In this document: positions 10,730 to 27,354 of the stretch, piece by piece | Layout: the number at the start of each line of letters is the position of its first letter | Position numbering within the stretch: position 1 is the first letter of the stretch | DNA from: Thermococcus sp. | GTDB taxonomy: Archaea > Methanobacteriota_B > Thermococci > Thermococcales > Thermococcaceae | Direction: 5' to 3' | DNA: 64,000 bases | Assembly: GCF_027023865.1 (NCBI RefSeq) | Contig: NZ_JALVUC010000003.1 | Coordinates: 1 to 64,000, forward strand | Made by a program: the position numbers and the translations under genes | The notes under the pieces: model-generated | What the model was told of the DNA's origin: nothing | What the model saw: the letters and a program-made list of their open reading frames with translations, nothing else | The model's database searches: none

Positions 10730-10731
10730 CT

Positions 10732-11697: not shown

Positions 11698-12600
11698 TCA
11701 ACCACCTCCAAGCTTTATCAGGACATCGGCTATTGCAGAGAGCGTGAGGATTAAACCGATGGGTAGGTTGAGGTTAAAAGCCTTGGGAACGTTTTCGAGG
11801 CTTTTCCTTGACAGGTAGTTCTCGTAGATGATCAAGGCACTCGCAACGACCCAGCCAGCGGTGTAAACCCACCCGAGACCATAGAGTGGCCCTGCAATCC
11901 CGAAGAGGATTACCGCAAACAGGTGAAAGGCCAATGCTACGTTGCGGGCCTTCTTTATCCCAAAGCGCGCGGGAATGCTTCCCACTCCATTCTCCACGTC
12001 GAACTCGTAGTCCATGAGCGCGTAGATGGTGTCAAAACCTGCCACCCAGAAGAGTACCCCAAAGTAGAAGGCCCAGGGGATCCTGAGCAGGGCCTCAAGC
12101 AGTGAGGCGTTTCCAGCGACGGCTATCGTCCCGCCCGCTACGGCCATAGCCAGCGTTAGACCGAGGTGTAAATGCGGGAAGCTGTGCTTTCTCTTCCCTT
12201 GGGGATAGCTGAGCGCCAGAACCCAGGGAATCGGACTTAGCAAAGCCGTCCAGATGTTCAAGAGAACGGCCGAGATGAAGTAGATTACCGAGCCAACAAC
12301 GACCAGCCACCATGCATCGCTCACCTTTACCGCGCCCCTGATAAGGGGCCTGTTCCAAGTCCTCGGATTTAAGCTGTCTATGTCTATGTCCGCTATGTTG
12401 TTGTAGGCCAAGGCTGCTGTCCTAAGCCCGAGGAGGGCGAAGCTCATAAGTACTATCTCAGCCCAGGTCACGGGAAAACCACTGAGGAGGGCCCCAACGT
12501 AGGCGTAAGGCAGGCTGAAAAGGGTGTGTTCTATCCTGACGAGCCTCATGAGTGCGTGGAACCTGCTCGCCTTGCTGACCTCACCGGGGTCGAATGCCAT
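11698..12600 (-). CDS. ubiA: UbiA-family aromatic prenyltransferase, MqnP/UbiA-like
   Basis: A 300-residue integral membrane protein with about eight to nine segments. Both Asp-rich motifs are intact: 'NNIADIDIDS' (NDxxDxxxD type), followed by 'RTWNRPL', and 'DYEFDVENGVGSIPARFG'. The 'NG.xSIPARFG' extension is typical of 4-hydroxybenzoate or MqnP prenyltransferases rather than the archaeal lipid enzyme DGGGP synthase. It would attach a polyprenyl chain to an aromatic acid in the membrane. ATG 12600 follows a GGTGGTTGAG site and abuts the ubiD stop. The adjacent UbiD and UbiE match the order of the later menaquinone steps. Confidence 0.9.
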   Translation of the reverse strand: MAFDPGEVSKASRFHALMRLVRIEHTLFSLPYAYVGALLSGFPVTWAEIVLMSFALLGLRTAALAYNNIADIDIDSLNPRTWNRPLIRGAVKVSDAWWLVVVGSVIYFISAVLLNIWTALLSPIPWVLALSYPQGKRKHSFPHLHLGLTLAMAVAGGTIAVAGNASLLEALLRIPWAFYFGVLFWVAGFDTIYALMDYEFDVENGVGSIPARFGIKKARNVALAFHLFAVILFGIAGPLYGLGWVYTAGWVVASALIIYENYLSRKSLENVPKAFNLNLPIGLILTLSAIADVLIKLGGG

Positions 12601-12601
12601 C

Positions 12602-14047
12602 TCAACCACCGAGGTACTTCCTGAAAAGGGTTTCGAGCTTTTTCAGCACTTCAGGCTCCTCCCTCACCTCTTCCACAACCCTGCCGCCCATCTCCAGCGG
12701 GAGCTTTTTAGTGGCGTCTATCCCGAGCTTGCTCCCCAGCGGCGGGTTTGAAACTGCTGGATCCAAGGCATCGGTGTGGGCGTTCGGGATTATCAAAACG
12801 TCCCTCTCCGGATTGACGAAGGAAGCGACCGCCCACATCACCTGGTTTACGTCGTGGACGTTGATGTCGTCGCTCACAACGATTATCACCTTGGTCAGAG
12901 CGGCCTGCCCAGTGCCCCAAAGGGCATTTAAGACTTTCTTTCCCTGACCGGGATAGCGCTTCTTTATCGAGACTATTGCCACTCCTTGGAAGACACCGTA
13001 CTCCGGAAAGTTGACGTCAACGACCTCCGGCAGGACCATTCTCATAAGAGGGAGAAAAATCCTCTCGATGGCCTTCCCGATTACGGCGTCTTCCAAAGGC
13101 GGCTTCCCGACGACCGAGCCGTAGTAGAGGGGGTTATCACGGTAATACAAGCGTTCGGCGTGGAAAACAGGGTAAAGCTCGTTCCTCTCGCTTGGCTTGT
13201 CGTAGAATCCGAAGTGGTCTCCAAATGGTCCCTCCTCGGTCAGCTCGTTCACATCGACGTAGCCCTCTATGACGGCCTCAGCGTTGGCCGGGACGAGGAT
13301 GCCGTTCGGCAGGCGGTATAGTTCCAAACCTTTTCCCCTGATGAAGCCGGCAAAGAGGAGCTTGTCCATCGGATACGGAACCGGCGAAACGGCCGTCAAG
13401 AGCGTCCCTATGTCCGAGCCTATAGCTATCGCCACCGGCATTTTACCGTCGTTCTTCTCGAGGTAATCCCTCCAGGCCTGGCTCCCGCGCTTGTGAACCT
13501 GCCAGTGGATTACACCCCTCTCGCCATTGAGGAGCATGACGCGATAAACGCTCATCGAGTTTATTCCTTTGGGGTCTGAGAAGCAGACGAGGGGGTAGGT
13601 TAGATAGCGGGAGGCATCTCCCGGCCAGGTTTTGAAGGCAGGAACGGAGTTCAGTGGTTCGTCCTCGATAATGTTTTTTGTGAATTCGGCCTTTCTCACG
13701 ACCCTTGGGAGGTAGTTGCTCATCTTCCTCAACTTTCCGAGGGATGTGAGCTTGTCCGAGAGGCCGAGTGGAAGGTTCTCTAGGAGCTTGAGAGGCCTCT
13801 CGCCTATCTCTTCGAGTTTTTCAACGCCCAGCACATCTCTGAGCGTCTCAACACCCGTGAAGAGGTTTCCAACAGCTCTCCACTCTGGAAAGTCCCTAAC
13901 CCTTTCGAAGAGAACAGCTCCCCTTTTCCTGTACATGGCCTTCCTAAGAAAAGCTGGAATCTCGAGTTCTGGTGAGAGCTCTTCGTCAACCCTGATAAGC
14001 TCACCGCGCTTTTCAAGCCACTCAAGGTAGTCCCTCATGTCATCCAC
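12602..14047 (-). CDS. ubiD: UbiD-family decarboxylase, MqnL-like
   Basis: A 481-residue protein of the length expected for UbiD. Landmarks include 'EEGPFGDHFGFYDK', 'YYGSVVGKPPLEDA', 'LWGTGQAALTKVIIVVSDD', 'INVHDVNQVMWAV' and 'SKLGIDATKKLPLE'. The family uses prenylated FMN to remove the carboxyl group from a prenylated aromatic ring; MqnL does this in the futalosine pathway. The UbiX-type flavin prenyltransferase it needs is not in the window. GTG 14047 follows a GAGGTG site; ATG 14038 is an alternative. It follows the ATPase gene by three bases and is tightly coupled to ubiA. Confidence 0.92.
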   Translation of the reverse strand: MDDMRDYLEWLEKRGELIRVDEELSPELEIPAFLRKAMYRKRGAVLFERVRDFPEWRAVGNLFTGVETLRDVLGVEKLEEIGERPLKLLENLPLGLSDKLTSLGKLRKMSNYLPRVVRKAEFTKNIIEDEPLNSVPAFKTWPGDASRYLTYPLVCFSDPKGINSMSVYRVMLLNGERGVIHWQVHKRGSQAWRDYLEKNDGKMPVAIAIGSDIGTLLTAVSPVPYPMDKLLFAGFIRGKGLELYRLPNGILVPANAEAVIEGYVDVNELTEEGPFGDHFGFYDKPSERNELYPVFHAERLYYRDNPLYYGSVVGKPPLEDAVIGKAIERIFLPLMRMVLPEVVDVNFPEYGVFQGVAIVSIKKRYPGQGKKVLNALWGTGQAALTKVIIVVSDDINVHDVNQVMWAVASFVNPERDVLIIPNAHTDALDPAVSNPPLGSKLGIDATKKLPLEMGGRVVEEVREEPEVLKKLETLFRKYLGG

Positions 14048-14050
14048 GGT

Positions 14051-14821
14051 TTACACCTCAACCTTGGGCCTTAAAACGGTTTCACCGGCGCACTCTATAA
14101 GCTCCAGCTCTATACCGTAAACCCTGCTTAAAAGCTCCTCGTTGAAGACTTCATCAGGCTTTCCTTGGGCAATTATGTTCCCTCCTTTCATCAGAACCAG
14201 CTTATCAGCAAAGAGGTAAGCCAAGTTGGGGTCATGGATTACCAGTAGGACACCAACACCATCTTTTGAGAGTTTCTTAACCGTCTGAAGGACTAGAAGG
14301 GTGTTTTTAAGGTCGAGCTCGCTCGTCGGTTCGTCGAGGAGGAGGTATTTTGGTGAGGTCATCAGGGCTCTCGCCGTAAGCAGGAGCCTTATCTGCCCTC
14401 CACTGAGGGAGGTGTAGGGTTTATCCAAGTAGGGATCCATATCAAAGAGTTTCAGGAGTTTCATGGCTTTCTTTCTGTGTCCTTCATTTGGGGCTCCAAA
14501 TGGGCCCAGCTCTGGAGTGGAGCCTAGAAGGACAAAGTCCAGAACCCTGAACGGAAACGTGGGAGTGTGACCCTGGGGCACGAAGCCGAGAAGCTTAACC
14601 CTCTCTCCCGGTGAAAGTTGATGAACGTCCATTCCATCAACCTCAATCCTTCCCCTCTCAGGCTTTAAAAGGCCGTATGTAAGCTTGAGCAGGGTACTCT
14701 TTCCAGCTCCGTTAGGTCCGATGATGGCGACCAGTTCCTCTGGACTAACCCCAAGGTTGATGTTATCTATCCTAAAGTCCCCGTAGGAGTAGGATACCCC
14801 CTCAACCCATAAGCCCCTCAA
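14051..14821 (-). CDS. FecE/BtuD-type ABC ATPase of the putative porphyrin importer
   Basis: A 256-residue ATPase with Walker A 'GPNGAGKST', signature 'LSGGQIRLL', Walker B 'YLLLDEPTSELDL' and switch 'VIHDPNLAYLF'. It pairs with the FecCD permease at 15413-16354. The flavodoxin gene lies between the two and overlaps the ATPase start by 20 bases. The start is a TTG at 14821 after GGTGAGAGAGA. Substrate class by family is iron complex, haem or corrinoid; the neighbours suggest a porphyrin or haem. Confidence 0.9.
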   Translation of the reverse strand: MRGLWVEGVSYSYGDFRIDNINLGVSPEELVAIIGPNGAGKSTLLKLTYGLLKPERGRIEVDGMDVHQLSPGERVKLLGFVPQGHTPTFPFRVLDFVLLGSTPELGPFGAPNEGHRKKAMKLLKLFDMDPYLDKPYTSLSGGQIRLLLTARALMTSPKYLLLDEPTSELDLKNTLLVLQTVKKLSKDGVGVLLVIHDPNLAYLFADKLVLMKGGNIIAQGKPDEVFNEELLSRVYGIELELIECAGETVLRPKVEV

Positions 14822-15422
14822 TCTCTCTCACCTTCTCCATGAAGTCGAAGTCCCTAACCTTATCAAGCCCCCCCTTCCTGAAATGCTTTCCGAACCAGTC
14901 GTAGTAGAGGAGCGTTCTCCTGACGAATGCTTCAACGTCCTTCTCTTTGAAGAGGCTCTTTTTCTCCAGCTTTTCCCCAAGAACGGCGTAAAATCTAACC
15001 ATCTTTCTCCTGTCATCATAGCTGAGTTTTTCAGGGTCTATTTCGCCCCCTATGAGCGTTCCGTAGAAGGGAGGGATCTCAAAGGCATCTATGAGTGGTT
15101 GGGAATAGGCTATCCCACCGTGGAGTTTTCCCATAAAGACCGAGCCTGCTAAGTGCATGGCAACTAGGAAGAAGGCCTTGGGTACATCTTCAAGCTCCCC
15201 TTTGTGAGCTTCCACCCACTCCATTATGTCCCAGTGGGGACCATCACGGTAGACCGGAGCAGCCATGATGACGAGATCATAGTTGGCTGGAGATGGGTTC
15301 TCTTCAGTGCGCTTAACCTTAACATCACCTCCTCTTCCCTCAAAAAGCCTTTTGGTCAGCTCAACAGCTTTTTTCGTGGTTCCGTAGCGCGTTGTGTAGA
15401 CAATTAGGATCCTCAACTCCAT
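14802..15422 (-). CDS. HemG-like flavodoxin-domain protein, possible porphyrinogen oxidase
   Basis: A 206-residue protein opening with a flavodoxin phosphate-binding loop 'YTTRYGTTKKAVELTKR' and continuing with 'YDLVIMAAPVYRDGPH'. The closest kind I recognise is the Flavodoxin_5/HemG group, FMN proteins that oxidise protoporphyrinogen with quinone as acceptor. The HemG-specific long insert is not clearly recognisable, so a general flavodoxin-like reductase remains possible. ATG 15422 follows GGAGGTGG. It lies inside the porphyrin/iron importer cluster and shares an operon with quinone genes, which makes a quinone-linked porphyrinogen oxidase attractive but unproven. Confidence 0.65.
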   Translation of the reverse strand: MELRILIVYTTRYGTTKKAVELTKRLFEGRGGDVKVKRTEENPSPANYDLVIMAAPVYRDGPHWDIMEWVEAHKGELEDVPKAFFLVAMHLAGSVFMGKLHGGIAYSQPLIDAFEIPPFYGTLIGGEIDPEKLSYDDRRKMVRFYAVLGEKLEKKSLFKEKDVEAFVRRTLLYYDWFGKHFRKGGLDKVRDFDFMEKVREIEGLMG

Positions 15423-16354
15423 CCACCTCCGGTTTTCCTGAGCAAATACCCAAAGAAGGGAACGCCAACTAGCGTTGTTATAATTCCAACGGGAATATCA
15501 CCCGGTAAAAGCCGCACAACAACATCTGCCAGAACCATGACGGTGATTCCAATAGAGATCGTCGCCGGGATTAACTTGGAATGTTCCGGACCGACAAGCA
15601 TTCTGGCTATGTGGGGAACCATAAGCCCTACCCAGCCGATTATCCCGGTGAACGAAACAACGAGCGTCGTCATTAGAGCCGAGATGAAGACGAATATCCC
15701 CCTCCAGAGGTGCACGTTCAGACCCAGAAGCTCGGCCTCGTCGCCAAGACTCATCGCGTTGAGGTTCCAGCGAAGGAGGAAGAGAATGACGGCAAGGATC
15801 AGAACGCCTGGAAGGGAGTAGAGCACCATCTTCTCCGTTGCACCGGAGAGGCTTCCCATCAGCCATATCACCAGTGCAGATAGACTCTCACTCGGCAGGA
15901 GGAGCTCAAGGAGGGAGAGCAAAGCCGAGAAAAGAGCGGTGACAATTATGCCGGCTAAAATGAGAGAGACCGTTGAGACCCTTCCGTTTATCCTGGCCAT
16001 CCAGTAGGCTAAGAAAACCGCCAGAAGACCGAAGATGAGCGCCAACGGTGCAACTCCCGCGGAGGGCAGGAAGGCAACCGCTATGGCCGCTCCAAAGGCA
16101 ACTCCCGAGGAGACTCCGAGGATGTATGTGCCAACGAGAGGGTTCCGAAAGACCGCCTGAAGGGTCATTCCCCCTAGACTTAGTGCTATCCCGGCCGAGA
16201 TGCCCATGAGCGTCCTCGGCAGGCGTATGTCCTTTATTATGATGATGGCGCCCGGCGTCAGGTGGAGGGGATCCGTCGGATAACTGCCCACGAAGATTCC
16301 GAGGAGTATAGCGACCGTGGGGAGGGCTATAAGGGTAAGTTGCTTTCTCATCAT
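15413..16354 (-). CDS. FecCD/BtuC-family permease of the putative porphyrin importer
   Basis: A 313-residue protein with about nine to ten membrane segments and FecCD marks: 'DIRLPRTLMGISAGIALSLG', 'NPLVGTYILGVSSGVAFGAA', 'GLMVPHIARM' and 'DIPVGIITTLVGVPFFGYLL'. It overlaps the flavodoxin gene by 10 bases and the upstream binding-like gene by 4. It forms the channel of the importer assembled with the ATPase at 14051 and the lipoprotein at 17245. Confidence 0.92.
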   Translation of the reverse strand: MMRKQLTLIALPTVAILLGIFVGSYPTDPLHLTPGAIIIIKDIRLPRTLMGISAGIALSLGGMTLQAVFRNPLVGTYILGVSSGVAFGAAIAVAFLPSAGVAPLALIFGLLAVFLAYWMARINGRVSTVSLILAGIIVTALFSALLSLLELLLPSESLSALVIWLMGSLSGATEKMVLYSLPGVLILAVILFLLRWNLNAMSLGDEAELLGLNVHLWRGIFVFISALMTTLVVSFTGIIGWVGLMVPHIARMLVGPEHSKLIPATISIGITVMVLADVVVRLLPGDIPVGIITTLVGVPFFGYLLRKTGGGWS

Positions 16355-17223
16355 TCAACACCGCAGAGGTTGTAAAGTTCTTTCGCGGGCTTTTCCCAGT
16401 CGGGGAAGTCCTTTCTATGGACGAGCCTTCCAATCTGGTAAATTCCTGGAATCAAACGGGGACTCCAGCGCATAAAGCTTTCCCCGTCGAGGGCAGAGCC
16501 GACGATGTGAACGTTGCCCTCGTCAACAGCTTTAACCTTCCTCCACTCGGCTGAATCAAACATCTCATCCCTTATCCCTTCTAACTTCTCCCTGTTAGTT
16601 AGGATACTCGTTAGGAGGAAGAGGTGGTCAGCGTCGCTGAAGCGCCTGATGAAGTCCCTCTCTCTCAGAGGATAGACCTTTCTCTCGGTTTTAAGTCTCT
16701 TCCCGAGGCTTTCGGCGTGAGCTTTTTTGATTGCATCGCTTATAACGTTGGTTCCAGTAACGACGTTTATTCCCCTATAGAGCACCGCTACCTTGGGTCT
16801 ATCCTCTAGCGATTGATTTATCTCCCTTATCCTCTCAAGATGCTTCCTGTAGAACTCCTCAAGCCTTGAGAAGTCCCCTCCTGTTTTTTCTGCTATCAGC
16901 CTGCTACCATCAACGAGATCCTCAATTGTAATGAAGTCGAGCAAAAGGACCTCGGCGTTGATCCTCCCCGCGAAGGAATAAAGCTCATCGCTGGAGTGCA
17001 GGTTCTCGACCTTAAAATCGAGGATGAGCTTAGGTTTTGTCCCCTCGAGGACATCCCAGTAGGTCTTCTTGGTTCTCTTGAGGTACTTACCCACGACCGG
17101 CCTGCCCCACAGCTCTTGAAGGCAGAGGTCGAGTCTTATCTCCTCGTTGATTCCAACTACATCGTCTGCTTTTCCAACAAGTTTAACGATCTCGGCAAGG
17201 CTTGCCGGAAAGACGGCTATCAT
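16351..17223 (-). CDS. Binding-protein-like (TroA/BtuF fold) protein without signal peptide
   Basis: A 290-residue paralogue of the lipoprotein encoded just upstream. It begins directly with the mature-domain pattern 'MIAVFPASLAEIVKLVGKAD' and ends with 'WSPRLIPGIYQIGRLVHRKD', matching 'WSPRIVIGIWQIGKAIYPN' of its neighbour. There is no signal sequence or lipobox, and a GGGGTGAG ribosome site directly before ATG 17223 shows that the short N-terminus is real. The product should be cytoplasmic. It may have become an intracellular porphyrin/metal carrier or an enzyme, or it may be an inactive duplicate. Frame and length look intact, which argues for function. Confidence 0.8.
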   Translation of the reverse strand: MIAVFPASLAEIVKLVGKADDVVGINEEIRLDLCLQELWGRPVVGKYLKRTKKTYWDVLEGTKPKLILDFKVENLHSSDELYSFAGRINAEVLLLDFITIEDLVDGSRLIAEKTGGDFSRLEEFYRKHLERIREINQSLEDRPKVAVLYRGINVVTGTNVISDAIKKAHAESLGKRLKTERKVYPLRERDFIRRFSDADHLFLLTSILTNREKLEGIRDEMFDSAEWRKVKAVDEGNVHIVGSALDGESFMRWSPRLIPGIYQIGRLVHRKDFPDWEKPAKELYNLCGVE

Positions 17224-17244: not shown

Positions 17245-18309
17245 TCAGGAGAGGAAGGGATAAAACTCCCTTATGAATCCTTTGGCTTTGTCCTCCCAGT
17301 TTGGATAGTAGTTGGGGTAGATGGCCTTCCCAATCTGCCATATCCCAATGACAATCCTTGGACTCCAGCGGAGGTAACTGCCCTTCCCCATGTCGGCCCT
17401 GAGGATTATTATGTGGCCCTCTCTGACGGCCTTTATCTGGTTCCACGCTTGGTTGGAGAGCATCGTCTCTTTGAGCTCCTTAACTTGGTCGTAGGGGGTA
17501 ACAGCGCTCGTAATGAGAATTACTACATCTGCATCCTTATAATTGGTGATTATCTTCTCCTCGTCCATGGGTACCCTAACGGGAGTGTAGCCGTTGAAGG
17601 TCAGGTTGACCATGTAATCCGCCCCGACGAGCCTTACCGCCTGTGCCAGAACGTCGTTCCCGTTGACGAGGTAGTACTTGCCCATTATTGGCTGTATCAT
17701 AATAACCTTCTTCCTATCCTCGTTCGGTATCTTGGCGGCTATAGCCTTTACTTCGCTCACCTGCTCGTTGAAGTACTTGGCGAACTCATCCGCCTTTTTC
17801 TCCTTTCCAAAGAGTTTTCCAAGCAGTTCTACAGTTTTGGGGATTTCTTCAAGCTTGTCCTCCCTTAGCATTACCACTGGAATCCCGTAGCTCGCCGATT
17901 TGTTGAGGAGCTCGTCGACGTTGTAGAATTTCTTGAGGTAAAGGTCTATTATAAGGTCGGGCTTTAACGCTAAGACCTTCTCCCAGTTCGTAACTCTTAA
18001 CATATTCCCGACGACCGTCTTGTTCTTAAGGCTTGAACTTAGGAATGCATCAGGCTTGGCATCTGCTGTAATCCCAACAACTTGGTTGGTCGCGTTGAGT
18101 AGCTGGGCTACTTCAAGGGCCGATGCGGAGAGTATAATTGCCCTCTGGACCGGAACCTCCACCGTCACGGTTCTCCCAACTAAGTCCTTGACGGTTATTT
18201 CCTTTGGTGTCGAGGTCGCCTTCTTTGGGGTGCTTGAACTCCCAATGCATCCTGCTGCTGCAACTGAAAACAACAAAACCCCTATTACCAAAAGTGCCTT
18301 CCACTTCAT
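17245..18309 (-). CDS. Iron-complex/haem-type ABC substrate-binding lipoprotein
   Basis: A 354-residue binding protein. The signal peptide ends in lipobox 'AAAGCIGSSS', followed by a Thr/Lys/Pro linker. The mature part has the standard opening 'ITVKDLVGRTVTVEVPV', then 'ALEVAQLLNATNQVVGIT' and 'WEKVLALKPDLIIDL'. The fold is TroA/BtuF (periplasmic-binding type III). It would capture ligand at the outer membrane face and pass it to the permease at 15413. Gaps to the radical SAM gene (9 bases) and to its leaderless paralogue (21 bases) place it in the same operon. Confidence 0.92.
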   Translation of the reverse strand: MKWKALLVIGVLLFSVAAAGCIGSSSTPKKATSTPKEITVKDLVGRTVTVEVPVQRAIILSASALEVAQLLNATNQVVGITADAKPDAFLSSSLKNKTVVGNMLRVTNWEKVLALKPDLIIDLYLKKFYNVDELLNKSASYGIPVVMLREDKLEEIPKTVELLGKLFGKEKKADEFAKYFNEQVSEVKAIAAKIPNEDRKKVIMIQPIMGKYYLVNGNDVLAQAVRLVGADYMVNLTFNGYTPVRVPMDEEKIITNYKDADVVILITSAVTPYDQVKELKETMLSNQAWNQIKAVREGHIIILRADMGKGSYLRWSPRIVIGIWQIGKAIYPNYYPNWEDKAKGFIREFYPFLS

Positions 18310-18318
18310 ACTCCCACC

Positions 18319-19524
18319 TCACACCGGTTTTTGCTTTCCGAAAGTTCCAATTGGAAGGGTAAGAGCGAGTTCTTTGGCAAGTTGGAGGTATGAACCCGGC
18401 TCGTAGGGACAGGCGGGGTCTTCGGTAAGGGGGTCGATGTGGTATGCGTAGGCCCTTGCCCTGCTCCCGCCACAGATGTCCCTGAACTCACACATTCCGC
18501 ATCTCCCTTTGAACTCTGCAGAGCGGAGCTTCTTCATGAGTTCTGAATTCTGGTAAATCTCGACGAGACCTTTCTCCCTCACATTGCCCGCACTGTACGG
18601 AAGGAAACCGCTCGGGTAAACGTTACCATTGTATGAGATGAAGACTATTCCCTTCCCGTCGCGCGTTCCCATCGTCTGTGCCCTCGCTTCGTTGCCTTCC
18701 CCGAGCAACTCGACCAGCCTCTTCTTAAGCCTGAAGTAAAGCTCCCCTGGCTTTAGAGTTTCATCCGGGTTGATGCCCTTCTCCTCCAGGGCCTTCCTCA
18801 TTATCGCAACCCTTCTGAACATAGGCCCTTCAGTTGTCCTAACAAGAATGTGCTTTGATGCTTCATAGAGGAAGTGGGTTACGTCTTCCCATTCCTCCGG
18901 CTTGAGGTCGCTTTCGAAGTTACCCCTTCCGGTTGGGACGAGGTAGAAGACCTCCCATATTTCGACGCCCAGCTCTTTGAGAAGTTTAACCATCTCAGGA
19001 AGGCCCTCAACGGTCTCACGCATAACGACGGTGTTCACCTGAACGGCAACGTCCCTCTTGAGGAACTCCTTTATCGCCCAGACGGTTCTCTCCCACGTTC
19101 CTTTGATGCCCCTTATATCGTCGTGGACATCCGGGAAGGGACTGTCGAGACTTATGCTAACTGCTTTAACGCCGTGTTTTACGATCTTCTCTATTGTTTC
19201 TTCCGTGAGGAGCGGAGTGACGGCGGGAGCGAGGCCGACGCGGATGCCCCTCTCAACCGCGTGGTCAATTAGTTCGAAGATATCGTTTCTCATGAGCGGG
19301 TCTCCGCCGGTGAGGATGAGAATTGGATAGGGCCTTCCGAAGTCGGTTAGTGAGTCAATGAGTTTCTTCCCTTCCTCGGTTGTCAACTCGCCGGGAAGTG
19401 CTTGGAGAATCGCCTCGGCGCGGCAGTGCTTGCACTTGAGCTGACAGGCTTTCGTCGTCTCCCAGAATACGAGGACTGGCTTTTCATTATATGGCCAAGA
19501 ACTGTGAGATTTGCCTCGGTGCAT
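18319..19524 (-). CDS. Radical SAM/SPASM protein related to AhbD (TIGR04053-like)
   Basis: A 401-residue radical SAM enzyme. The SAM cluster motif is 'CQLKCKHC', after 'KPVLVFWETTKA'. 'GGDPLMR' follows, and the C-terminal SPASM-type region is 'CGMCEFRDICGGSRARAYA' with a last Cys in 'DPACPYEPGS'. AhbD, its relative, converts Fe-coproporphyrin III to haem b. AhbD has Cys where this protein has Ser in 'CGGSRARA', and the present sequence looks closest to the TIGR04053 group, whose reaction is less certain. It is the first gene of the 12-gene operon, with ATG 19524 after GGTGGTC. Near a ferrochelatase and a cytochrome bd it is a strong candidate for the last haem step. Confidence 0.85.
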   Translation of the reverse strand: MHRGKSHSSWPYNEKPVLVFWETTKACQLKCKHCRAEAILQALPGELTTEEGKKLIDSLTDFGRPYPILILTGGDPLMRNDIFELIDHAVERGIRVGLAPAVTPLLTEETIEKIVKHGVKAVSISLDSPFPDVHDDIRGIKGTWERTVWAIKEFLKRDVAVQVNTVVMRETVEGLPEMVKLLKELGVEIWEVFYLVPTGRGNFESDLKPEEWEDVTHFLYEASKHILVRTTEGPMFRRVAIMRKALEEKGINPDETLKPGELYFRLKKRLVELLGEGNEARAQTMGTRDGKGIVFISYNGNVYPSGFLPYSAGNVREKGLVEIYQNSELMKKLRSAEFKGRCGMCEFRDICGGSRARAYAYHIDPLTEDPACPYEPGSYLQLAKELALTLPIGTFGKQKPV

Positions 19525-19538
19525 TTCGACCACCGTCT

Positions 19539-19623: not shown

Positions 19624-20619
19624 TTAATAATAGCCCTTCGCCTCGGTGACCTTCCCTCCGAACATCTTGTAGACGTAGAGGGTGTAAGCCATGATGATTA
19701 TTGCTAGGATTACTGAGACTCCAAGAACTGCCTGAAGCGTCAGCGGCGATGCAGCGAGGGCGTGGATGCTGAGCTTGAAGGTGGGGTCGATGGTAGAAAT
19801 GACCCAGTAAGGATACATGCTGTAGTAAACGAGGTAGACCACCAGCGGGAAGGCCAGCCAGCTGAGGTAGAACGCTCCCCTTTCGGACCCCTTCTTGATT
19901 AGGTAGGCATCCACGAAGGCCGCTATTAGGATTATCAACGTCAGTGTAAGCCCAAGCGGGGTCAGTGCTCTACTGAACCTCAGCGGTGCCCAGACCTTCA
20001 TGCCGATTACCGTGAGCAGAAGAAAGACCACCATGAGGACCCAGAAGTCAAAGGCAAGCTTTCTCATCCGCTCCTGGAGCCTGCCCGTTGTCTTGTAGAC
20101 CGCCCAGTTGGCCCCGTGCCACATCACAGCGAAGAGCACGAAGAGGCCCACTATGAGCGGGAACGGTCTGAAGAGCGTCAGGAGCGAGCCGTGGAAGCCG
20201 CTTGCATCTATGGGGATGCCTTGGATGAGGTTGCCAACTATGATGCCGAGGATCAGTGCTATGAGGGCACTGACTGTGGCGAAGAGGTAGTCCCAGGTTC
20301 TCTTGTATTTGTTCCTGAACTCAAAGCTGACCGCTCTGAAGATGAACATGAACGCCAGCAGCCAGACCGCGAGATAGAACGTGCTGAAGAGTGTCGCGTA
20401 GAGGGCGGGCCACATTGCGAACAGCCCGGCTCCCCACGTGATGAACCATACCTCGTTGCCGTCCCAGACAGGGGCCATGGTGTTCACTAAAACGTCCCTG
20501 TCCTTTTGGTCCCTAACGAAGGGGAGCAGGCTTCCAAGGCCGAGGTCAAAGCCGTCGAATGCCAGATACATTCCAAGGAGGAACGCTGAAAAGTAAAACC
20601 AGGCAGTCGCGTAGTCCAT
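19624..20619 (-). CDS. cydB: Cytochrome bd quinol oxidase subunit II
   Basis: A 331-residue membrane protein with about eight to nine segments. Typical CydB motifs are 'AFDGFDLGLG', 'APVWDGNEVWFITWG' and 'FRAVSFEFR'. Subunit II pairs with CydA and helps form the O2 and proton pathway. The start ATG 20619 overlaps the cydA stop (TGATG), so the two are translationally coupled. The gene ends about 40 bases from the promoter of the haem/quinone operon, which reads the same way. Confidence 0.95.
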   Translation of the reverse strand: MDYATAWFYFSAFLLGMYLAFDGFDLGLGSLLPFVRDQKDRDVLVNTMAPVWDGNEVWFITWGAGLFAMWPALYATLFSTFYLAVWLLAFMFIFRAVSFEFRNKYKRTWDYLFATVSALIALILGIIVGNLIQGIPIDASGFHGSLLTLFRPFPLIVGLFVLFAVMWHGANWAVYKTTGRLQERMRKLAFDFWVLMVVFLLLTVIGMKVWAPLRFSRALTPLGLTLTLIILIAAFVDAYLIKKGSERGAFYLSWLAFPLVVYLVYYSMYPYWVISTIDPTFKLSIHALAASPLTLQAVLGVSVILAIIIMAYTLYVYKMFGGKVTEAKGYY

Positions 20620-22148
20620 CACTGACCACCCCCTGCGGCGCTAACCGCTGGAGCGGGCGTTGACTTGGAGGTGGGATCGCCCTCAACAGGCTCAGGTCCC
20701 TCCCTGACGAGCTTCTTGACGAAGTGGAGCCAGATGTAGAACAGCAGCAGGTAGACCGTCACGAAGCCGATTAGGGTTATCAACACGCTGGTAGCTGAGA
20801 TGTTTGAAGAGACACCGTTTCTGACGGTTACCATGCCCCAGACCATCCAGGGCTGCCTTCCAACCTCGTGGGTGAACCAGCCCGCCTCACCGGCCAGCCA
20901 CGGGAGTGGGAGCGTAACTACGAGCACCTTGAGGAACCATCTGGCATCGTAGAGTTTGCCGAGGAGGAGTAGGAGAACTCCAAGGCCGCCTATTGCTATG
21001 AAGAGCGTTCCAAGGCCGACCATGACGCGGTAGGCATAGAACATGAAGGCAACGGGTACTGACTTCTCAAGGACCTGAACCATCTTCTGGTTGGCGTTCG
21101 GGTCGTTCGGGTTGATGCCGTAGGCCTTCATTATGCTGTCAACCACCTGCTTCTTGACTTTCTCGTTCGCGTAGTTCGGGTTGTTGAGCACTTCATGGTA
21201 CCAGACGTATTCAGCCGCGTCGTGCAGTCCGAGGACCTTTGCGTTCCAGTTACCAAAGGCGAGCCAGCTCAGCATCTTTGGAATCTCTATCGCGTACTTT
21301 ATCTGCTGGTTCTTTTCGTCGACGATGCCGAAGACCACCATGGGCGCACCGACGGTCGTGTGGTAGAGACCCTCGTCCGCAGCCAGCTTCGTCGGCTGGT
21401 ACTGGGCTATAACCCTGCCCTCCTCGTGACCGGTTGGATAAAGCTGGATAACGGAGCTTATCGCTAGGACGACTATACCTATCGCAACGGCGCTTTTTGC
21501 AACCTGAACGTGCTTCTTCTTGAGGAGATAGTAGGCACCAACGGCCGCAACGATGTACGCTCCAGTTATTATTGCGGAGTTAATGGTGTGGGTGTACTGG
21601 GAAACCAAGAGTGGGTTGAAAACGGCCTTCATGAAGTTGGTGAGTTCGGCCCTCGGTCCGAGGGGGGTGTTCTTGATGATGTAAGCGGTTGGGGTCTGCT
21701 GCCAGCTGTTGGCTATGAGAATCCAGAGACCTGAAAGCGCTGAACCTAAAGAGACGAAAAATGCCGCAATCCAGCTTATGACCCTTGGGAGCCTGTCCAT
21801 GCCGAAGAGCAGGACGCCAAGGAACGTTGATTCAAGGGCGAAGGCAAAGAGTCCCTCGAGCATCAGCGGCGGGCCGAAGATCGAGCCAACGAACATCGAG
21901 TAGTTCGCCCAGTTGGCACCGAACTCGAACTCCATGACGATTCCAGTTGGAACACCGAGGACGAAGAACACTCCTAGCCACTTGCTGAAGAACTTTGCGG
22001 CTTTGTACCACTGTTCTTCGTTGGTTATCACTGCCATGGTCCACAGCAGGAACACCATGAAGCCTATTCCTATGCTTGCGGGCACAAAAATCCAATGGTA
22101 ACCCGCGGTGAGTGCAAACTGAATCCTTGAAAGCGTTACCGGGTCCAT
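20619..22148 (-). CDS. cydA: Cytochrome bd quinol oxidase subunit I
   Basis: A 509-residue membrane protein. The key residues known from E. coli CydA can all be placed: His18 (haem b595 ligand), Glu98 and Glu106 in 'EGLFAFALESTF', His187 in 'QYTHTIN' and Met376 in 'YRVMVGLG' (haem b558 ligands). The quinol-loop residues Lys254 and Glu259 fall in 'QPTKLAADEG', and the 'GRQPW' signature is at 430-434. This is therefore a complete quinol-oxidising subunit, not a distant relative. The C-terminus carries a Pro/Ala/Ser-rich tail. ATG 22148 follows GGAGGTGA. With CydB it oxidises quinol at the membrane and reduces O2 to water. Confidence 0.96.
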   Translation of the reverse strand: MDPVTLSRIQFALTAGYHWIFVPASIGIGFMVFLLWTMAVITNEEQWYKAAKFFSKWLGVFFVLGVPTGIVMEFEFGANWANYSMFVGSIFGPPLMLEGLFAFALESTFLGVLLFGMDRLPRVISWIAAFFVSLGSALSGLWILIANSWQQTPTAYIIKNTPLGPRAELTNFMKAVFNPLLVSQYTHTINSAIITGAYIVAAVGAYYLLKKKHVQVAKSAVAIGIVVLAISSVIQLYPTGHEEGRVIAQYQPTKLAADEGLYHTTVGAPMVVFGIVDEKNQQIKYAIEIPKMLSWLAFGNWNAKVLGLHDAAEYVWYHEVLNNPNYANEKVKKQVVDSIMKAYGINPNDPNANQKMVQVLEKSVPVAFMFYAYRVMVGLGTLFIAIGGLGVLLLLLGKLYDARWFLKVLVVTLPLPWLAGEAGWFTHEVGRQPWMVWGMVTVRNGVSSNISATSVLITLIGFVTVYLLLFYIWLHFVKKLVREGPEPVEGDPTSKSTPAPAVSAAGGGQ

Positions 22149-22264: not shown

Positions 22265-22468
22265 CTAGCTTCTGACCTTCGGCTTCGTGAAGAATCCTTC
22301 GCCGTGAACTTCCGCTTCGTAGAGGACGAAGCCCACGGTAAAGAGCATCCCTGCGATTATCCATACAACGCTGTGCGCCAGGAATGCTATCAACACGAAC
22401 AGCAGTGTCAGGGTTATAGCCGCGAGACCGTAGAGCACTTCCCTCCCGGTTTCAATTTCCACCGTCAT
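22265..22468 (-). CDS. Small two-helix membrane protein upstream of cydAB
   Basis: A 67-residue protein with two hydrophobic segments ('VLYGLAAITLTLLFVLIAFL' and 'WIIAGMLFTVGFVLY') and a charged C-terminus. ATG 22468 follows GGTGATG and a strong promoter lies at 22501-22518, so it looks real despite its size. It precedes cydA by 116 bases in the same direction. Cytochrome bd of bacteria uses small single-helix subunits (CydX/CydH); this protein does not resemble them closely, but it could be an accessory subunit or assembly factor. I do not recognise a family. Confidence 0.65.
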   Translation of the reverse strand: MTVEIETGREVLYGLAAITLTLLFVLIAFLAHSVVWIIAGMLFTVGFVLYEAEVHGEGFFTKPKVRS

Positions 22469-22500
22469 GGCGCATCACCGTCTGATTTTTTCGTCTTATG

Positions 22501-22518
22501 TTCTTATATAAATTTCGG
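22501..22518 (-). promoter_or_regulatory. Promoter of the small gene upstream of cydAB
   Basis: Minus-strand 'CCGAAATTTATATAAGAA' is a strong BRE/TATA pair about 35 bases before ATG 22468. Confidence 0.65.
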
Positions 22519-22521
22519 CCA

Positions 22522-22541
22522 TTAGGGGTTCCAAACCCTAA
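22522..22541. promoter_or_regulatory. Central dyad between the divergent respiratory promoters
   Basis: TTAGGGGTTCCAAACCCTAA is an inverted repeat (TTAGGG...CCCTAA) placed between the BRE elements of the two divergent promoters. Its ends resemble DtxR-type half-sites. A regulator bound here could act on both sides. Confidence 0.4.
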
Positions 22542-22550
22542 AGGTGCGAG

Positions 22551-22570: not shown

Positions 22571-22579
22571 CCAAACTTC

Positions 22580-22619: not shown

Positions 22620-23768
22620 ATGACCAAAGTTCTGATACTCGGCGGAGGAACCGCTGGATTGGTGGCTGGAAGGTATCTAAAGGCCGAGGCCGAGCGGCTC
22701 GGTCTGGAAGTGGACGTTACTATGGTAACTGCAAGCGACAGACACTACATGCCCCCATTATTTATGGAGATCGCGCTTGGTTCTGCGGAGCCCCATGAAA
22801 CCTGGGCGCCGATAAAGAACGCCGAAAAGGTATACGGCTTCAAAGTTGACATCGGCAGGGCTACCGAGATAGATCTGTCAAACAGACAGGTGAAGACTGA
22901 AAACGGCAAGGTCTACGACTACGACTACCTCTTCCTTGGCCTCGGCGTGGAGTACGTTTGGGACAAGTATAAAGGCATGAGCGAGTACGGCTACCATAAC
23001 TACACCCTTGAGGGGGCGCTTGAGCTTCACAAAGCCCTTTCGGAATTCAAGGGCGGGAAGGTAGTCATCTACACTCCAGAGGTACCACACCGCTGCGGAA
23101 TCTACCCCTACGAGATGAGCCTTAACCTCAGGATGTACTTCGAGCACCGCGGAATTGAGGGTGTTGAGATAACCGTCATCCATCCAGACAAGAGGCCCGG
23201 AATTGGCCTCGGGCCAAACCTGGTGAGGTTCTTCGAGAGGGAGATGGAGAAGGCCAACGTGAAGTTCATATCCAACGAGGGGCATGTTGAGATAACTTCC
23301 AATAAGGTAGTAACAAAGAACGCCGAGGTTGACTACGACCTCCTCATCAAAGTTCCGCCGATAGCGATTCCAGACATCCTGGCGTTCATGGCTGACGATA
23401 AAGACCCGCGCTGGGCGAAAGTGAAGGGACCCGACTTCCGCTATCCGGGATACGACGAGGTTTACATCGTCAGCGAGGCGAGCATGCCGCCTCTCGGGCT
23501 TCTAACTGCGGGAGTTCCGCTCCACAACGCTTCGATTGTAGCGGCCACCAGCATACTCCACTGGATACACGGTGGCTATCCGGTGGCTGAATACGCCCCG
23601 ACGATGTGTCTTGGCCACGGCTACAACACGGGCTTCTCCGGAAACTGCGAGTTTGAATGGAAGGGCGATAAGTATAAGCACGAGTGCTATCTACTCTTCA
23701 AGAGCCCACTCGTGAGGCTGATGAAGGACTCCTTCTATAGGGGATGGCTTGACAGCTTGAGGGTGTGA
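22620..23768 (+). CDS. Sulfide:quinone oxidoreductase-like FAD flavoprotein
   Basis: A 382-residue two-dinucleotide-fold flavoprotein. The FAD loop is 'ILGGGTAGLVAGRYL'. 'YDYLFLGLGVEYVWDKY' marks the second nucleotide region, and 'PLGLLTAGVPLHNASIVAAT' lies near the C-terminal quinone side. A Cys in 'VPHRCGIYPYE' fits the position of a catalytic SQR cysteine, and more Cys residues occur in 'PTMCLGHGY' and 'SGNCEFEW', but the full SQR triad cannot be fixed by eye. It may oxidise sulfide, NAD(P)H or another donor and reduce quinone. ATG 22620 follows GGAGGTGC. The DUF1641 partner follows, as seen with SQR-type genes in other archaea. Confidence 0.8.
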   Translation: MTKVLILGGGTAGLVAGRYLKAEAERLGLEVDVTMVTASDRHYMPPLFMEIALGSAEPHETWAPIKNAEKVYGFKVDIGRATEIDLSNRQVKTENGKVYDYDYLFLGLGVEYVWDKYKGMSEYGYHNYTLEGALELHKALSEFKGGKVVIYTPEVPHRCGIYPYEMSLNLRMYFEHRGIEGVEITVIHPDKRPGIGLGPNLVRFFEREMEKANVKFISNEGHVEITSNKVVTKNAEVDYDLLIKVPPIAIPDILAFMADDKDPRWAKVKGPDFRYPGYDEVYIVSEASMPPLGLLTAGVPLHNASIVAATSILHWIHGGYPVAEYAPTMCLGHGYNTGFSGNCEFEWKGDKYKHECYLLFKSPLVRLMKDSFYRGWLDSLRV

Positions 23769-23778
23769 GGTGGTGAAG

Positions 23779-24201
23779 ATGAGCGAGCTTACTCTTACCC
23801 CGGAGGAGGTTATTGCCATTAAAGAGATGGCCGAGGTTGCTTTGGCTCTCAAGAAGGGCGGTACACTGGGCATGCTCAAGTCCATGGCCGAGAACGGTGA
23901 CAAGCTCCTTGAGACAATAGCCGAGGAGAAGGCAGTCCTCAGGCTTGCGGGCATTGGAAACGCCGCACTTGAACCGGTCAGAGAGATAGAGACCGAGGAG
24001 GTAGAGAAGATACAGGTAAATACAGAGGAACTCGTGGAAGCGTTCCTCAAGGCTTTAGCCAAGACCGATCCAAAGGATGCTCCAAGGGTCGGCGTGACCT
24101 CGGCTCTGGGTTACCTCCGCGACGAGGACGTTCAGAAGGGACTTGGCCTCCTCTTAATCCTCGCCAAGAACCTTGGAGCGGCTTTAAACGGTACGCTCTG
24201 A
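23779..24201 (+). CDS. DUF1641-family protein
   Basis: A 140-residue helical, acidic protein. The C-terminal 'LGYLRDEDVQKGLGLLLILAKNLG' stretch (part: DEDVQKGLGLLLILAKNLG) is typical of DUF1641 proteins, which are often encoded next to SQR-like or formate-dehydrogenase flavoproteins. Its role is unknown; membrane attachment or a subunit function for the flavoprotein is plausible. ATG 23779 follows GAGGTGGTGA, ten bases after the flavoprotein stop. Confidence 0.75.
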   Translation: MSELTLTPEEVIAIKEMAEVALALKKGGTLGMLKSMAENGDKLLETIAEEKAVLRLAGIGNAALEPVREIETEEVEKIQVNTEELVEAFLKALAKTDPKDAPRVGVTSALGYLRDEDVQKGLGLLLILAKNLGAALNGTL

Positions 24202-24229: not shown

Positions 24230-25123
24230 TTGAGGGTTCTCTTCACCTACATGGGCGCTCCCACCGAACCGGATGAAATCGAGGACTTCATATTCCGCTT
24301 TCTCTATGACATAAAGCACCACATAGGTTTGGACGTTCCCGGCGCTAGGGCGATAATCAAGGGGATAGCGAAGGCGAGGGCGAGGCAGGTTAGGGAGCAC
24401 TACGCGTTCATGGGCGGGAAAAGTCCTCTCGTCGAGTATATGGAGGAGATAGCAAAGGCTGTGAGTGAAAAGACCGGCCACGAGATAAGACTCGGCATGT
24501 GCTACTCAAAACCCCTTTTGGAAGAACTTAATTGGGACTTCGACTTAATATTCCCGCTCTACCAAGTCTACTCAAGCTCAACCACGGAGCGCTGTCTGGT
24601 CAGGATAAGGGAGCTTTTTGGCGAGAAGCCCTACGTTAAGGAATGGTGGGACAATGAGAAGTTCGTCCGCTGGGTTCAGGGGAATATTAAGACCGGGCTG
24701 AAGGAGAGCGGTTTTGAAGAGCCTTACGTTATCCTCAGCGTCCATAGTTTGCCGAAGAGGGTAATCGAGGAAGGCGACCCCTACGAGAAGAGCCACAGGA
24801 GACTCGCCGAAAGGGTCATGAAAGCCTTTGACCTTCCATGGGAAATCGCATTCCAGAGCAAGTTTGGAAAAGGTGAGTGGCTTGGACCGGAAGTCCCTGA
24901 TGTATTGGAGAAGCTCAAATTGGAGGAAGTTAATGAGGTTTTGATTTACCCGCTCAGCTTCCTCGTTGAGAACGTTGAGACGCTCTACGAGCTTGATGTG
25001 GAATATAAAGAGGTCGCGGATAGGCTCGGCCTGAGATACTACCGGGTCGGGCTAAACCACCGCGACCCGCTCCTGAGTGAGGCAATAGTGGAGGTGATTG
25101 AGAATGCCGGTAACGAAAACTGA
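24230..25123 (+). CDS. hemH: Ferrochelatase
   Basis: A 297-residue ferrochelatase. The catalytic His172 is in 'ILSVHSLPKRVIEEGDPY' and the conserved acidic residue, Glu250, is in 'LVENVETLYELD'. 'YQVYSSSTTERCLVRI' matches the substrate-cleft region. No membrane helix is seen. The enzyme inserts Fe(II) into protoporphyrin or coproporphyrin. The start is TTG 24230 after GGAGGTGGT, the only start that keeps the family N-terminus. None of the early haem genes are in the window, so the porphyrin is probably imported or made by genes elsewhere. Placement behind a quinone reductase ties it to the cytochrome bd nearby. Confidence 0.92.
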   Translation: MRVLFTYMGAPTEPDEIEDFIFRFLYDIKHHIGLDVPGARAIIKGIAKARARQVREHYAFMGGKSPLVEYMEEIAKAVSEKTGHEIRLGMCYSKPLLEELNWDFDLIFPLYQVYSSSTTERCLVRIRELFGEKPYVKEWWDNEKFVRWVQGNIKTGLKESGFEEPYVILSVHSLPKRVIEEGDPYEKSHRRLAERVMKAFDLPWEIAFQSKFGKGEWLGPEVPDVLEKLKLEEVNEVLIYPLSFLVENVETLYELDVEYKEVADRLGLRYYRVGLNHRDPLLSEAIVEVIENAGNEN

Positions 25124-25472
25124 GGGTGTGGAGGTAACGGAGATGGGCAACTTTACGGATGCTTTCATAGCGTACATAATGGGCTTCGTCGGCGGGATTC
25201 CAATACTCCTCATGAAGGACTCGAGCGAGTTCATGAGAAAGCACGCCGCCTATTCGAGCGTCATGGGCTTCTTCGCCTGGCTCGCCTTTATGGGGGCCTG
25301 GCATATGAACCCTGGTTACCCCCACTTTGGACCAGCTATGTACGTTGTCTATACCTGGCTGGTATATGCGGCCTTCGGCATCTGGAAAGCAGTTAGGGGT
25401 GAGACCTACAGAATCCCCGTCATAGATGGCATGGCAGAAAAGCTCATTAAGGCCATTGAACCAGCAGTGTGA
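25104..25472 (+). CDS. Small membrane protein, DUF4870-like
   Basis: A 122-residue protein with three hydrophobic segments. The pattern 'FVGGIPILLMKDSSEFMRKH' followed by 'AAYSSVMGFFAWLAF' resembles DUF4870/Tic20-like small membrane proteins, whose function is unknown. ATG 25104 follows GGAGGTGA and lies inside the end of hemH. A role in haem or oxidase assembly is possible from its place in the operon only. Confidence 0.6.
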   Translation: MPVTKTEGVEVTEMGNFTDAFIAYIMGFVGGIPILLMKDSSEFMRKHAAYSSVMGFFAWLAFMGAWHMNPGYPHFGPAMYVVYTWLVYAAFGIWKAVRGETYRIPVIDGMAEKLIKAIEPAV

Positions 25473-25481
25473 GGGAAAGCC

Positions 25482-26447
25482 ATGAGGAAAGTTGCGGTCC
25501 TTTCACTGCTTTTACTTACCCTTCTTTTGGTTCCACACGTCCAGGCGGGGAACCCAGATGTTTTCATGGGGAAGTTCATAGATGCATTTAACACTGGCAA
25601 CTACTCGCTGATAGAACCTTATATGAGTGGGGAACTCAAAAGCCAGTTCACAGAGGGCTACTTTCACCAGATAGGGGAATTCACCCTCAGCAACTATGGG
25701 AAGCTTAGGGGCTATGAGCTTATCTCTAACTCGACTGAGGGTGAGTTGAGGAAGTTCGAGTATAGAGTTTACGGCGATAGAGGCTCCTTTCCGGTTCTTT
25801 TAGCCTATAAGAACGGTAAACTCGTCGGGATTGCCCTCGGCATCAGGGCAAAACCCAATCCCGTCGGGATGTTATTAATGATGCTCGGCTCGCTTATACC
25901 CTTGGGGGTGTTTTACTATTGGAGGAGAAGGCTTGAAACGGCGGAGTTTGTCATGGGCGTTGGAATAGCGCTCGGTCTCTCAGTAATCCTGCCGTTTTAC
26001 TCCATTGTGACTATTGGAATGAGTAGGGCCGTGGGGGTTCTAACGACCGCCTTCTTAACGGCCCTTACCGTTGAAGGCTCGAAATACTACTTCTCCCATA
26101 ACAGGGATGGCCTCTCGCTCGGTCTTGGTTTTGGCGTCGGTAAGTACGTCTTCCTGGCTATAGGCACGTTCGTTGCCGCCAACTTCATAATGAAGCTCCC
26201 GGTTTCCTTTGCCGGAGGGGAGCTCTACACCTTCCTGAGTGCGCTGGTCTTCACGGCTTTTCACGGGGTAAGTGCGATGCTCTACTCTGGGGGGAAGCCC
26301 TCCTACTTCTTCCTGTTCACGAGCTTCGAATTCTCGGCGCTGGCCCTTTTATCCCTTGGAATGCCCGCGCTGGGTATAGGACTCATCGTGCTGGCCTTTG
26401 TTGTGGGATTCGCTCTCACCGGAGGGAGAGAACATGGAGTCGCTTGA
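25482..26447 (+). CDS. Membrane protein with signal peptide and extracytoplasmic domain
   Basis: A 321-residue protein. A signal peptide (residues 1-22, ending 'VPHVQAG') is followed by a domain of about 90 residues ('KFIDAFNTGNYSLIEPYMSG') resembling DUF3887-type domains, then about seven membrane segments. The membrane half has scattered Glu/His residues that could be a YhfC/PrsW-type protease core, but no clear motif pair is visible. It begins ten bases after the upstream gene and overlaps the polyprenyl synthase start by 14 bases. Function unknown. Confidence 0.6.
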   Translation: MRKVAVLSLLLLTLLLVPHVQAGNPDVFMGKFIDAFNTGNYSLIEPYMSGELKSQFTEGYFHQIGEFTLSNYGKLRGYELISNSTEGELRKFEYRVYGDRGSFPVLLAYKNGKLVGIALGIRAKPNPVGMLLMMLGSLIPLGVFYYWRRRLETAEFVMGVGIALGLSVILPFYSIVTIGMSRAVGVLTTAFLTALTVEGSKYYFSHNRDGLSLGLGFGVGKYVFLAIGTFVAANFIMKLPVSFAGGELYTFLSALVFTAFHGVSAMLYSGGKPSYFFLFTSFEFSALALLSLGMPALGIGLIVLAFVVGFALTGGREHGVA

Positions 26448-27354
26448 CGAGAAGCTCATTGAGGCCCTAGAGGGAAGCGTTGAACTCGCCAAGAAGATAG
26501 GGGAGTACATGATACGGAGCGGTGGGAAGAGGATAAGGCCTCGTATAGTTTTGGCTGTTTCAAAGGGCCTTGACCTTAGAGGGGATGATGCCCTGGATCT
26601 TGCTTCCGCCATTGAACTCATCCACACGGCAAGCCTAGTTCACGACGACGTCATCGACCTGGCGGAGAAGAGGAGGAACAGCCCGACCGTGCCGATGCAG
26701 TGGGGGCCTGAACTTGCCGTTCTCAGCGGTGACTTCCTCTTCGTGAGGGCATTGAGGATGATCGCCTTCAAGAGGGCTGGTATGGTGGACTACGTTGCCA
26801 AGGCCGTCGAGGATATGGTGAAGGCCGAAATCCTTCAGGAGGCAGTGAGGGGAAGCGTCCACCTTGACATCGGCACCTACTACAGGGTCATCGACGGAAA
26901 GACTGGGAAGCTCTTCGGAGCTTCTTTCGCGCTTCCGGCTTACTACCTTAAGAAACCTTTCTGGGAGGAGCTGGATAAGGCAGGGATGCTGGTTGGAAGG
27001 GCCTTTCAGATTGTTGACGACGTCCTTGACTACTTCCCTGGGACCGGAAAGGACCGCTTCAAGGACCTCCTTAACGGTAAGACGACCCTGCCCCTCATAC
27101 TCTACACAGAGCACTATGGTTCATCCCTCGTTGAGAGAACCCTACTCGAACCGAAGGAGGATAACCTTCTGAACCTGTTCAGGAGAATGAACTCTGCTGG
27201 TGTTTTCAGGGAGGCTATGGACATCGCAAGGGGTTTTCTAAACGAGGCTTATGGGTCAATCAAATCCCTTCCCTTCGATTCTTCGGGGGTTATCTCGCTC
27301 GTCGATGAGTACTTTAAGGGGGTCTTCGTAAAGTTTGAAAAAGTTGGTGGTTAA
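26434..27354 (+). CDS. Long-chain-type polyprenyl diphosphate synthase
   Basis: A 306-residue trans-prenyltransferase. 'GGKRIRP' binds pyrophosphate. The first Asp-rich motif is DDVID in 'TASLVHDDVIDLAEKRR' and the second is DDVLD. The fifth and fourth residues before the first motif are Ala and Ser, small residues as in long-chain (octaprenyl and longer) enzymes rather than aromatic as in farnesyl synthase. Thermococcales need a geranylgeranyl synthase for lipids, but the location in a respiratory operon suggests this one supplies the quinone tail. ATG 26434 follows GGAGGGAGAG. Confidence 0.85.
   Translation: MESLDEKLIEALEGSVELAKKIGEYMIRSGGKRIRPRIVLAVSKGLDLRGDDALDLASAIELIHTASLVHDDVIDLAEKRRNSPTVPMQWGPELAVLSGDFLFVRALRMIAFKRAGMVDYVAKAVEDMVKAEILQEAVRGSVHLDIGTYYRVIDGKTGKLFGASFALPAYYLKKPFWEELDKAGMLVGRAFQIVDDVLDYFPGTGKDRFKDLLNGKTTLPLILYTEHYGSSLVERTLLEPKEDNLLNLFRRMNSAGVFREAMDIARGFLNEAYGSIKSLPFDSSGVISLVDEYFKGVFVKFEKVGG

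Follow-up and report, generated by a model that had tools for sequence, protein, structure and literature searches.

We propose that a gene cassette of about 19 kb around cydAB in Thermococcus supplies a genuine cytochrome bd with what it needs from half-made cofactors, which would be borrowed from neighbouring organisms in order to remove oxygen. The resulting salvage-dependent O2-scavenging chain would run from sulfide via an SQR-like enzyme, menaquinone and cytochrome bd to O2, and we hold this reading at a probability of roughly 55%. The cassette lies in the window, by which we mean the whole stretch of 64,000 nucleotides analysed here, and belongs to a Thermococcus genome of 1.92 Mb whose best named relatives are Thermococcus MAGs with 85–95% identity.

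The sequence-only reading had placed CydA and CydB at 19624–22148, and both could be confirmed there in two reading frames of the minus strand (Table 1). The frames share a 4 nt overlap and are matched by their profiles over nearly the full length, with PF01654 covering CydA from end to end (profile 1–418 of 418, 7.6e-146) and PF02322 covering residues 6–321 of CydB (profile region 3–302 of 302, 1e-77), for which TIGR00203 is also over its cut-off. A match by chance is excluded. All CydA residues named in that reading, H18, H187 and M376 as haem ligands, the pair E98/E106, K254 and E259 of the quinol loop and the GRQPW motif (430–434), are present and correctly numbered, and R374 and E428 are present as well. 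The set of haem ligands and proton-path acids (H18, H187, M376, E98, E106 and E428) is complete, and so are the quinol-site residues K254, E259 and GRxPW. The alignment with E. coli CydA (6rko, E = 2.5e-89) gives as their equivalents the known H19, E99, E107, H186, K252, E257, R391, M393 and E445. GRQPW is not an invariant motif, as many Thermococcus CydA have GRMPW instead. The haem ligands and K254/E259 are kept among full-length relatives in Thermococcus as well as in the related bacterial proteins, which agrees with the earlier statement that a degenerate relative is ruled out. By sequence, CydAB is thus supported as an intact cytochrome bd of the quinol type, neither degenerate nor a non-quinol relative, and within our best explanation it is predicted to be a genuine quinol:O2 oxidoreductase in a Thermococcus that lives by fermentation and counts as a strict anaerobe. 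The CydA residues do not discriminate between haem d and haem b as the third haem, and no CydDC was recognised among the cassette genes scanned.

Table 1: Genes of the cyd cassette and its divergent run, with positions in the window.
Feature	Position	Strand	Remarks
UbiE/MenG methyltransferase	8717..9400	-	TIGR01934 over cut-off
NMT1/SsuA/TauA-type ABC importer	9381..11697	-	ATPase 9381-10022, permease 9998-10729, lipoprotein binding protein 10732-11697
UbiA-family prenyltransferase, MqnP-like	11698..12609	-	NF009609 over cut-off; MqnP models about 1e-59, below cut-off
UbiD-family decarboxylase, MqnL-like	12602..14047	-	TIGR03701 1.6e-121, 406 bits, cut-off 496
ABC ATPase, haem/B12/Fe-siderophore type	14051..14821	-	
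HemG-like flavodoxin	14802..15422	-	PF12724 3.7e-13
FecCD/BtuC-type permease	15413..16354	-	
Second Peripla_BP_2-like protein, very divergent	16351..17223	-	E = 4.7e-4; signal peptide not evident
Haem/siderophore-type substrate-binding lipoprotein, IsdE-like	17245..18309	-	PF01497; lipobox Cys21
Radical SAM/SPASM protein, TIGR04053 family	18319..19533	-	TIGR04053 524 bits, cut-off 395
CydB, cytochrome bd subunit II	19624..20622	-	332 aa
CydA, quinol-type cytochrome bd subunit I	20619..22148	-	509 aa
Conserved 67-aa membrane protein	22265..22468	-	first in cyd operon, directly upstream of cydA
SQR-like flavoprotein (sulfide:quinone oxidoreductase superfamily)	22620..23768	+	Cys159, Cys330
DUF1641 protein	23770..24201	+	
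Ferrochelatase HemH	24230..25123	+	TIGR00109 over cut-off
Two membrane proteins kept in cassette	25098..26447	+	25098-25472 DUF4870-like; 25482-26447
Long-chain polyprenyl diphosphate synthase	26398..27354	+	also retained in cassette-less G008

Fifteen consecutive minus-strand genes, which overlap or are spaced by no more than ~120 bp, run from 22468 to 8717 in the order 67-aa ORF, cydA, cydB, radical SAM, a haem/siderophore-type ABC importer enclosing the HemG-like flavodoxin, UbiD, UbiA, an NMT1-type ABC importer and UbiE, so that two ABC importers share a gene run with cydAB, one next to the haem and one next to the quinone genes. The divergent run starts at 22620 with the SQR-like gene, followed by DUF1641, HemH, the two membrane proteins and the polyprenyl diphosphate synthase, which likely makes the quinone tail, and then by Mrp/NuoL-type antiporter genes. 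Of the two membrane proteins between HemH and the prenyl synthase one is DUF4870-like, and a weak DUF3887 match was also seen. TATA-like elements in both directions are found in the stretch that separates the 67-aa ORF from the SQR-like gene (22480–22600), where also the short palindrome CTAACTCAGTTAG is located, and such elements (TTATATA/TTAAATA types) recur in the aligned loci. A ferritin gene (7615–8145) adjoins the cassette and adjoins the site in the cassette-less genomes G008 and G013 too.

Several of the neighbours are assigned at the family level. The named relatives closest to the radical SAM protein are AhbD (haem b synthase), NirJ and AhbC, with the AhbD model reaching 304 bits, which is under the AhbD cut-off, and our literature search on TIGR04053 found no paper. 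A second AhbD-like radical SAM protein (G000:C8:105343-106377 and orthologues, ~240 bits to TIGR04053, ~560-aa frame) occurs in many Thermococcus genomes with or without cyd. IsdE is the best NCBIfam match of the first binding lipoprotein, yet below cut-off, and the sole NCBIfam match of the HemG-like flavodoxin is a weak one to menaquinone-dependent protoporphyrinogen IX dehydrogenase (7.4e-7, below cut-off). The SQR-like flavoprotein matches Pyr_redox_2 and has its two cysteines in SQR-like contexts, its match being one at superfamily level only (best SQR-III match 116 bits versus a cut-off of 525 bits).

Genome-wide questions were answered by targeted family searches. HemB and MqnA/MqnD were found in 0 of 61 Thermococcus genomes, and for MenD nothing over cut-off was obtained among the 61 (two weak matches), with positive controls found in named genomes. 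Since HemB, MqnA/D and a true MenD are absent from these genomes, what the cassette encodes of haem and quinone synthesis is limited to the final steps, and both cofactors must come via salvage or another route. The sequence-only reading did not take up this gap, which alters the biological picture. UbiA, UbiD and UbiE correspond exactly to the steps of the futalosine pathway from 1,4-dihydroxy-6-naphthoate to menaquinone. The cassette proteins of these families score well against the MqnP, MqnL and MenG models but stay below the MqnP and MqnL equivalog cut-offs, and without MqnA/MqnD only the late steps of that pathway are represented. The cofactor of UbiD requires UbiX, which is found throughout the genus. 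The missing early steps together with a late-step cassette suggest salvage, as far as gene content can tell.

In the chain that we propose, the FecCD/IsdE-like importer would bring in a porphyrin(ogen) or haem, as its position and the chemistry indicate, and the HemG-like flavodoxin, HemH and the AhbD-like radical SAM enzyme may finish an imported porphyrin to protohaem. By the same reasoning the NMT1-type importer would take up an aromatic acid, most economically 1,4-dihydroxy-6-naphthoate, to be prenylated by UbiA, decarboxylated by UbiD and methylated by UbiE to a menaquinone. The substrates are guesses, because the HemG-like, MqnP, MqnL, IsdE and SQR assignments all lie below equivalog cut-offs. 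Sulfide is a waste product when Thermococcus reduces sulfur, and the SQR-like enzyme could then transfer electrons from it to the quinone and cytochrome bd from the quinone to O2, which would give 2 H2S + O2 -> 2 S(0) + 2 H2O in net and remove oxygen at the membrane, possibly with some proton-motive force and the return of sulfur as acceptor as by-effects. H2S inhibits bo3 but not cytochrome bd of E. coli (PMC8657789), and such a tolerance suits a sulfide producer.

Of the 61 Thermococcus genomes 18 have PF01654, and several of these 18 consist of a single contig; among 115 genomes of the phylum it occurs in no genus other than Thermococcus, and cydA is therefore real and restricted to this genus within the sampled phylum. 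Contamination or misassembly is excluded by its presence in the single-contig genomes G007, G010 and G021 (also in G018 with two contigs) and by the conserved gene order. HemH occurs in 18 of 18 cyd-positive genomes versus one of 43 cyd-negative ones (G054), the SQR-like flavoprotein in the same 18 plus G054, and UbiA in 17 of 18 versus 0 of 43, the missing one being due to a contig end. G054 itself is 88% complete and has contig breaks in the cassette. For HemH, the SQR-like protein and UbiA against cydA, Fisher's test gives p about 1e-14 each, although these are not tests on independent samples as the genomes are related. UbiD and UbiE are co-inherited with cydAB as well. TIGR04053 over cut-off is confined to cyd-positive genomes and not found in G007, and its state in G053 and G055 is accounted for by fragments at contig edges.

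The gene order of the cassette is the same in the relatives fetched, and only in G007 are the genes from radical SAM through the haem ABC importer missing. This genome has kept cydAB, HemH and the quinone genes and has no haem importer, HemG-like protein or radical SAM enzyme between cydB and ubiD, and this part is thus not obligatory. G007 is probably T. gammatolerans, as its gene order is exactly the one reported for that species. In G016 (L053, 16600–17510) an intact ubiE is followed by the C-terminal half of the NMT1-type ABC ATPase, and this half is fused to what remains of the polyprenyl diphosphate synthase, its C-terminal part, a junction that reads as a clear deletion scar of the cassette. 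As the cassette is located at the same site in the relatives examined, it has, by these sequences, clearly been lost at least once. In G008 the ferritin and prenyl synthase genes are about 700 bp apart with other sequence between them and the cassette absent, and its NuoL-like protein is 90% identical to that of the window.

To take up the earlier proposal that a tree might reveal the donor of CydA, we analysed a tree of 27 CydA sequences, with reference families of non-quinol CydA-like proteins not among them. All Thermococcus CydA form one clade (support 100/100) inside a 93/91 group with CydA from Heliobacterium, Anaerolineae, Syntrophomonas and a deltaproteobacterial MAG, and E. coli-type, cyanobacterial and haloarchaeal CydA are located outside this group. 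A place among non-quinol CydA-like proteins, named earlier as refuting, was not obtained within the sequences sampled, and the protein groups with bacterial CydA bearing K254/E259. No donor can be named, because the Thermococcus stem is long (1.16 changes per site); the nearest sampled relatives, the short-loop CydA of anaerobic bacteria, show ~41–45% identity. An origin from haloarchaea is not supported, as their CydA falls outside the group. From the cassette genes only cydB was seen near the short-loop bacterial cydA within the fetched flanks.

In all Thermococcus CydA the Q-loop is enlarged in its C-terminal half by an insertion of ~47 aa (roughly residues 313–362) that is absent in the nearest bacteria. 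As the tree puts Thermococcus CydA with these short-loop proteins, the insertion looks independently gained and is best read as a Thermococcus-specific extension. Cytochrome bd-I from E. coli (6rko) shares all haem-ligand and quinol-site residues and also has a long C-terminal Q-loop, but its CydA is 36% identical to that of Thermococcus and the two loops differ in length (70 versus 88 residues over the compared stretch) and in sequence. Homology between both loops was considered and has the tree against it, though the alignment is suggestive in places.

The first gene of the cyd operon, situated between cydA and the SQR-like gene, encodes a small protein without a Pfam family over cut-off. 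Its 67 codons, always in the orientation of cyd, are exactly conserved in length in 16 of 16 loci with no indels, and pN (0.04–0.38) versus pS (0.37–0.79) together with the constant length rule out a chance ORF. A hydrophobic stretch spans about residues 10–50, and the predicted single-sequence fold is one long helix (mean pLDDT 86.9) that does not fix one versus two membrane passes and shows no partner. CydX, CydH and CydS are known as small oxidase subunits, and by analogy to them the 67-aa protein is probably a candidate small structural subunit of the oxidase.

The same data might be explained by a quinol-driven CydAB in cells that synthesise haem and quinone de novo with early enzymes that escape recognition, the two ABC transporters then serving for something unrelated, for instance iron siderophores, cobalamin or sulfonates. 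The transporter families are indeed broad, with B12, ferric siderophore and taurine systems among the best matches, and tetrapyrrole and quinone pathways do show non-orthologous variants. However, we know of no haem pathway that bypasses HemB, which is missing from all 61 genomes despite positive controls, the marker enzymes of both known menaquinone entry routes are absent as well, and the importers lie inside the gene runs and are co-inherited in most loci, which makes this explanation rather unlikely in our eyes.

The oxidase could also be mainly a stress enzyme that, following exposure or irradiation, removes O2, peroxide or nitric oxide. Another enzyme would then reduce the quinone, and the SQR-like protein might oxidise NAD(P)H or reduce sulfur, to name two options. 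Such a detoxification role, possibly induced after irradiation, has been proposed in the T. gammatolerans genome paper (PMC2718504), and an SQR match of 116 bits against a cut-off of 525 leaves room for another activity. We nevertheless doubt it, as the SQR-like gene has a divergent promoter region in common with the cyd operon, is restricted to cassette-bearing genomes and encodes the two cysteines in SQR-like contexts. That the cassette is a mere relic, an old acquisition in decay that a third of the species keep without real use, would fit its patchy occurrence (18 of 61), the one clear scar in G016 and the empty site in the close relative G008, but the cassettes that do occur have intact genes, the catalytic residues of CydA are all retained across species at 81–95% identity and pN of the 67-aa ORF is well below pS, and we consider it very improbable.

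The salvage-fed oxygen-scavenging chain can also be stated in a fuller form, to which we would give somewhat less than an even chance. In this form, 18 of 61 Thermococcus species have a cassette, which has been lost at least once and would turn imported porphyrin and naphthoate into haem and menaquinone. Its sole purpose would be to run a sulfide-fuelled bd oxidase that has the 67-aa protein as a new subunit and a Q-loop extended in its own way, in a genus that otherwise makes neither cofactor. The usual description of Thermococcales is that of strict anaerobes lacking cytochromes and quinones. Should the proposal be true, some of them hold a conditional respiratory chain dependent on precursors leaked by neighbours, which would change the view of their oxygen tolerance, of vent ecology and of their presumed 'no cytochrome' status. 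The system would then also be a compact one, with haem salvage, quinone salvage and oxygen scavenging each open to single-gene deletion.

The presence of CydAB next to quinone genes in Thermococcus is already published, and the protein is an ordinary family member. The T. gammatolerans genome paper describes an obligate anaerobe with cydAB (tg1232-1233), called the first in Thermococcales, near UbiE, UbiA and UbiD, and reads them as a probably laterally acquired cytochrome bd quinol oxidase (PMC2718504). In strain EJ3, tg1226-tg1233 comprise the same CydAB and UbiE-UbiA-UbiD genes in the same order as in the window, but the matching genome G007 has no haem-importer/radical SAM block. In the main text of the genome paper heme and ferrochelatase have 0 occurrences and quinone import is not mentioned, and neither the 67-aa protein nor the missing early pathways appear to be discussed (PMC2718504). 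A 2025 study found bd in Thermococci as one clade (PMC7618691), and a 2010 survey of archaeal haem genes, which states that archaea do not usually possess hemH, tabulates none for T. gammatolerans (PMC3004389). The haem side of the cassette thus appears to have been overlooked in the literature that we searched.

The proposed chain has a likeness in bacteria. In Streptococcus agalactiae, which possesses a cydAB-ndh-menA operon, respiration depends on haem and quinone from outside (PMC6030563), and lactic acid bacteria have partial quinone pathways (PMC8303990). As in these fermenters, CydAB is accompanied by only late quinone genes and the cofactors would come from outside, which in our case is read from the genes. 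In contrast to S. agalactiae, where the cyd neighbour is NDH-2, Thermococcus has an SQR-like gene in the neighbourhood and is an archaeal hyperthermophile with porphyrin- and quinone-finishing genes and adjoining importers combined in one cassette. It is this setting that is new: a cassette whose cofactors would depend on salvage, in an archaeal genus that otherwise lacks haem and quinone, together with a small protein not described before and a loop specific to the lineage.
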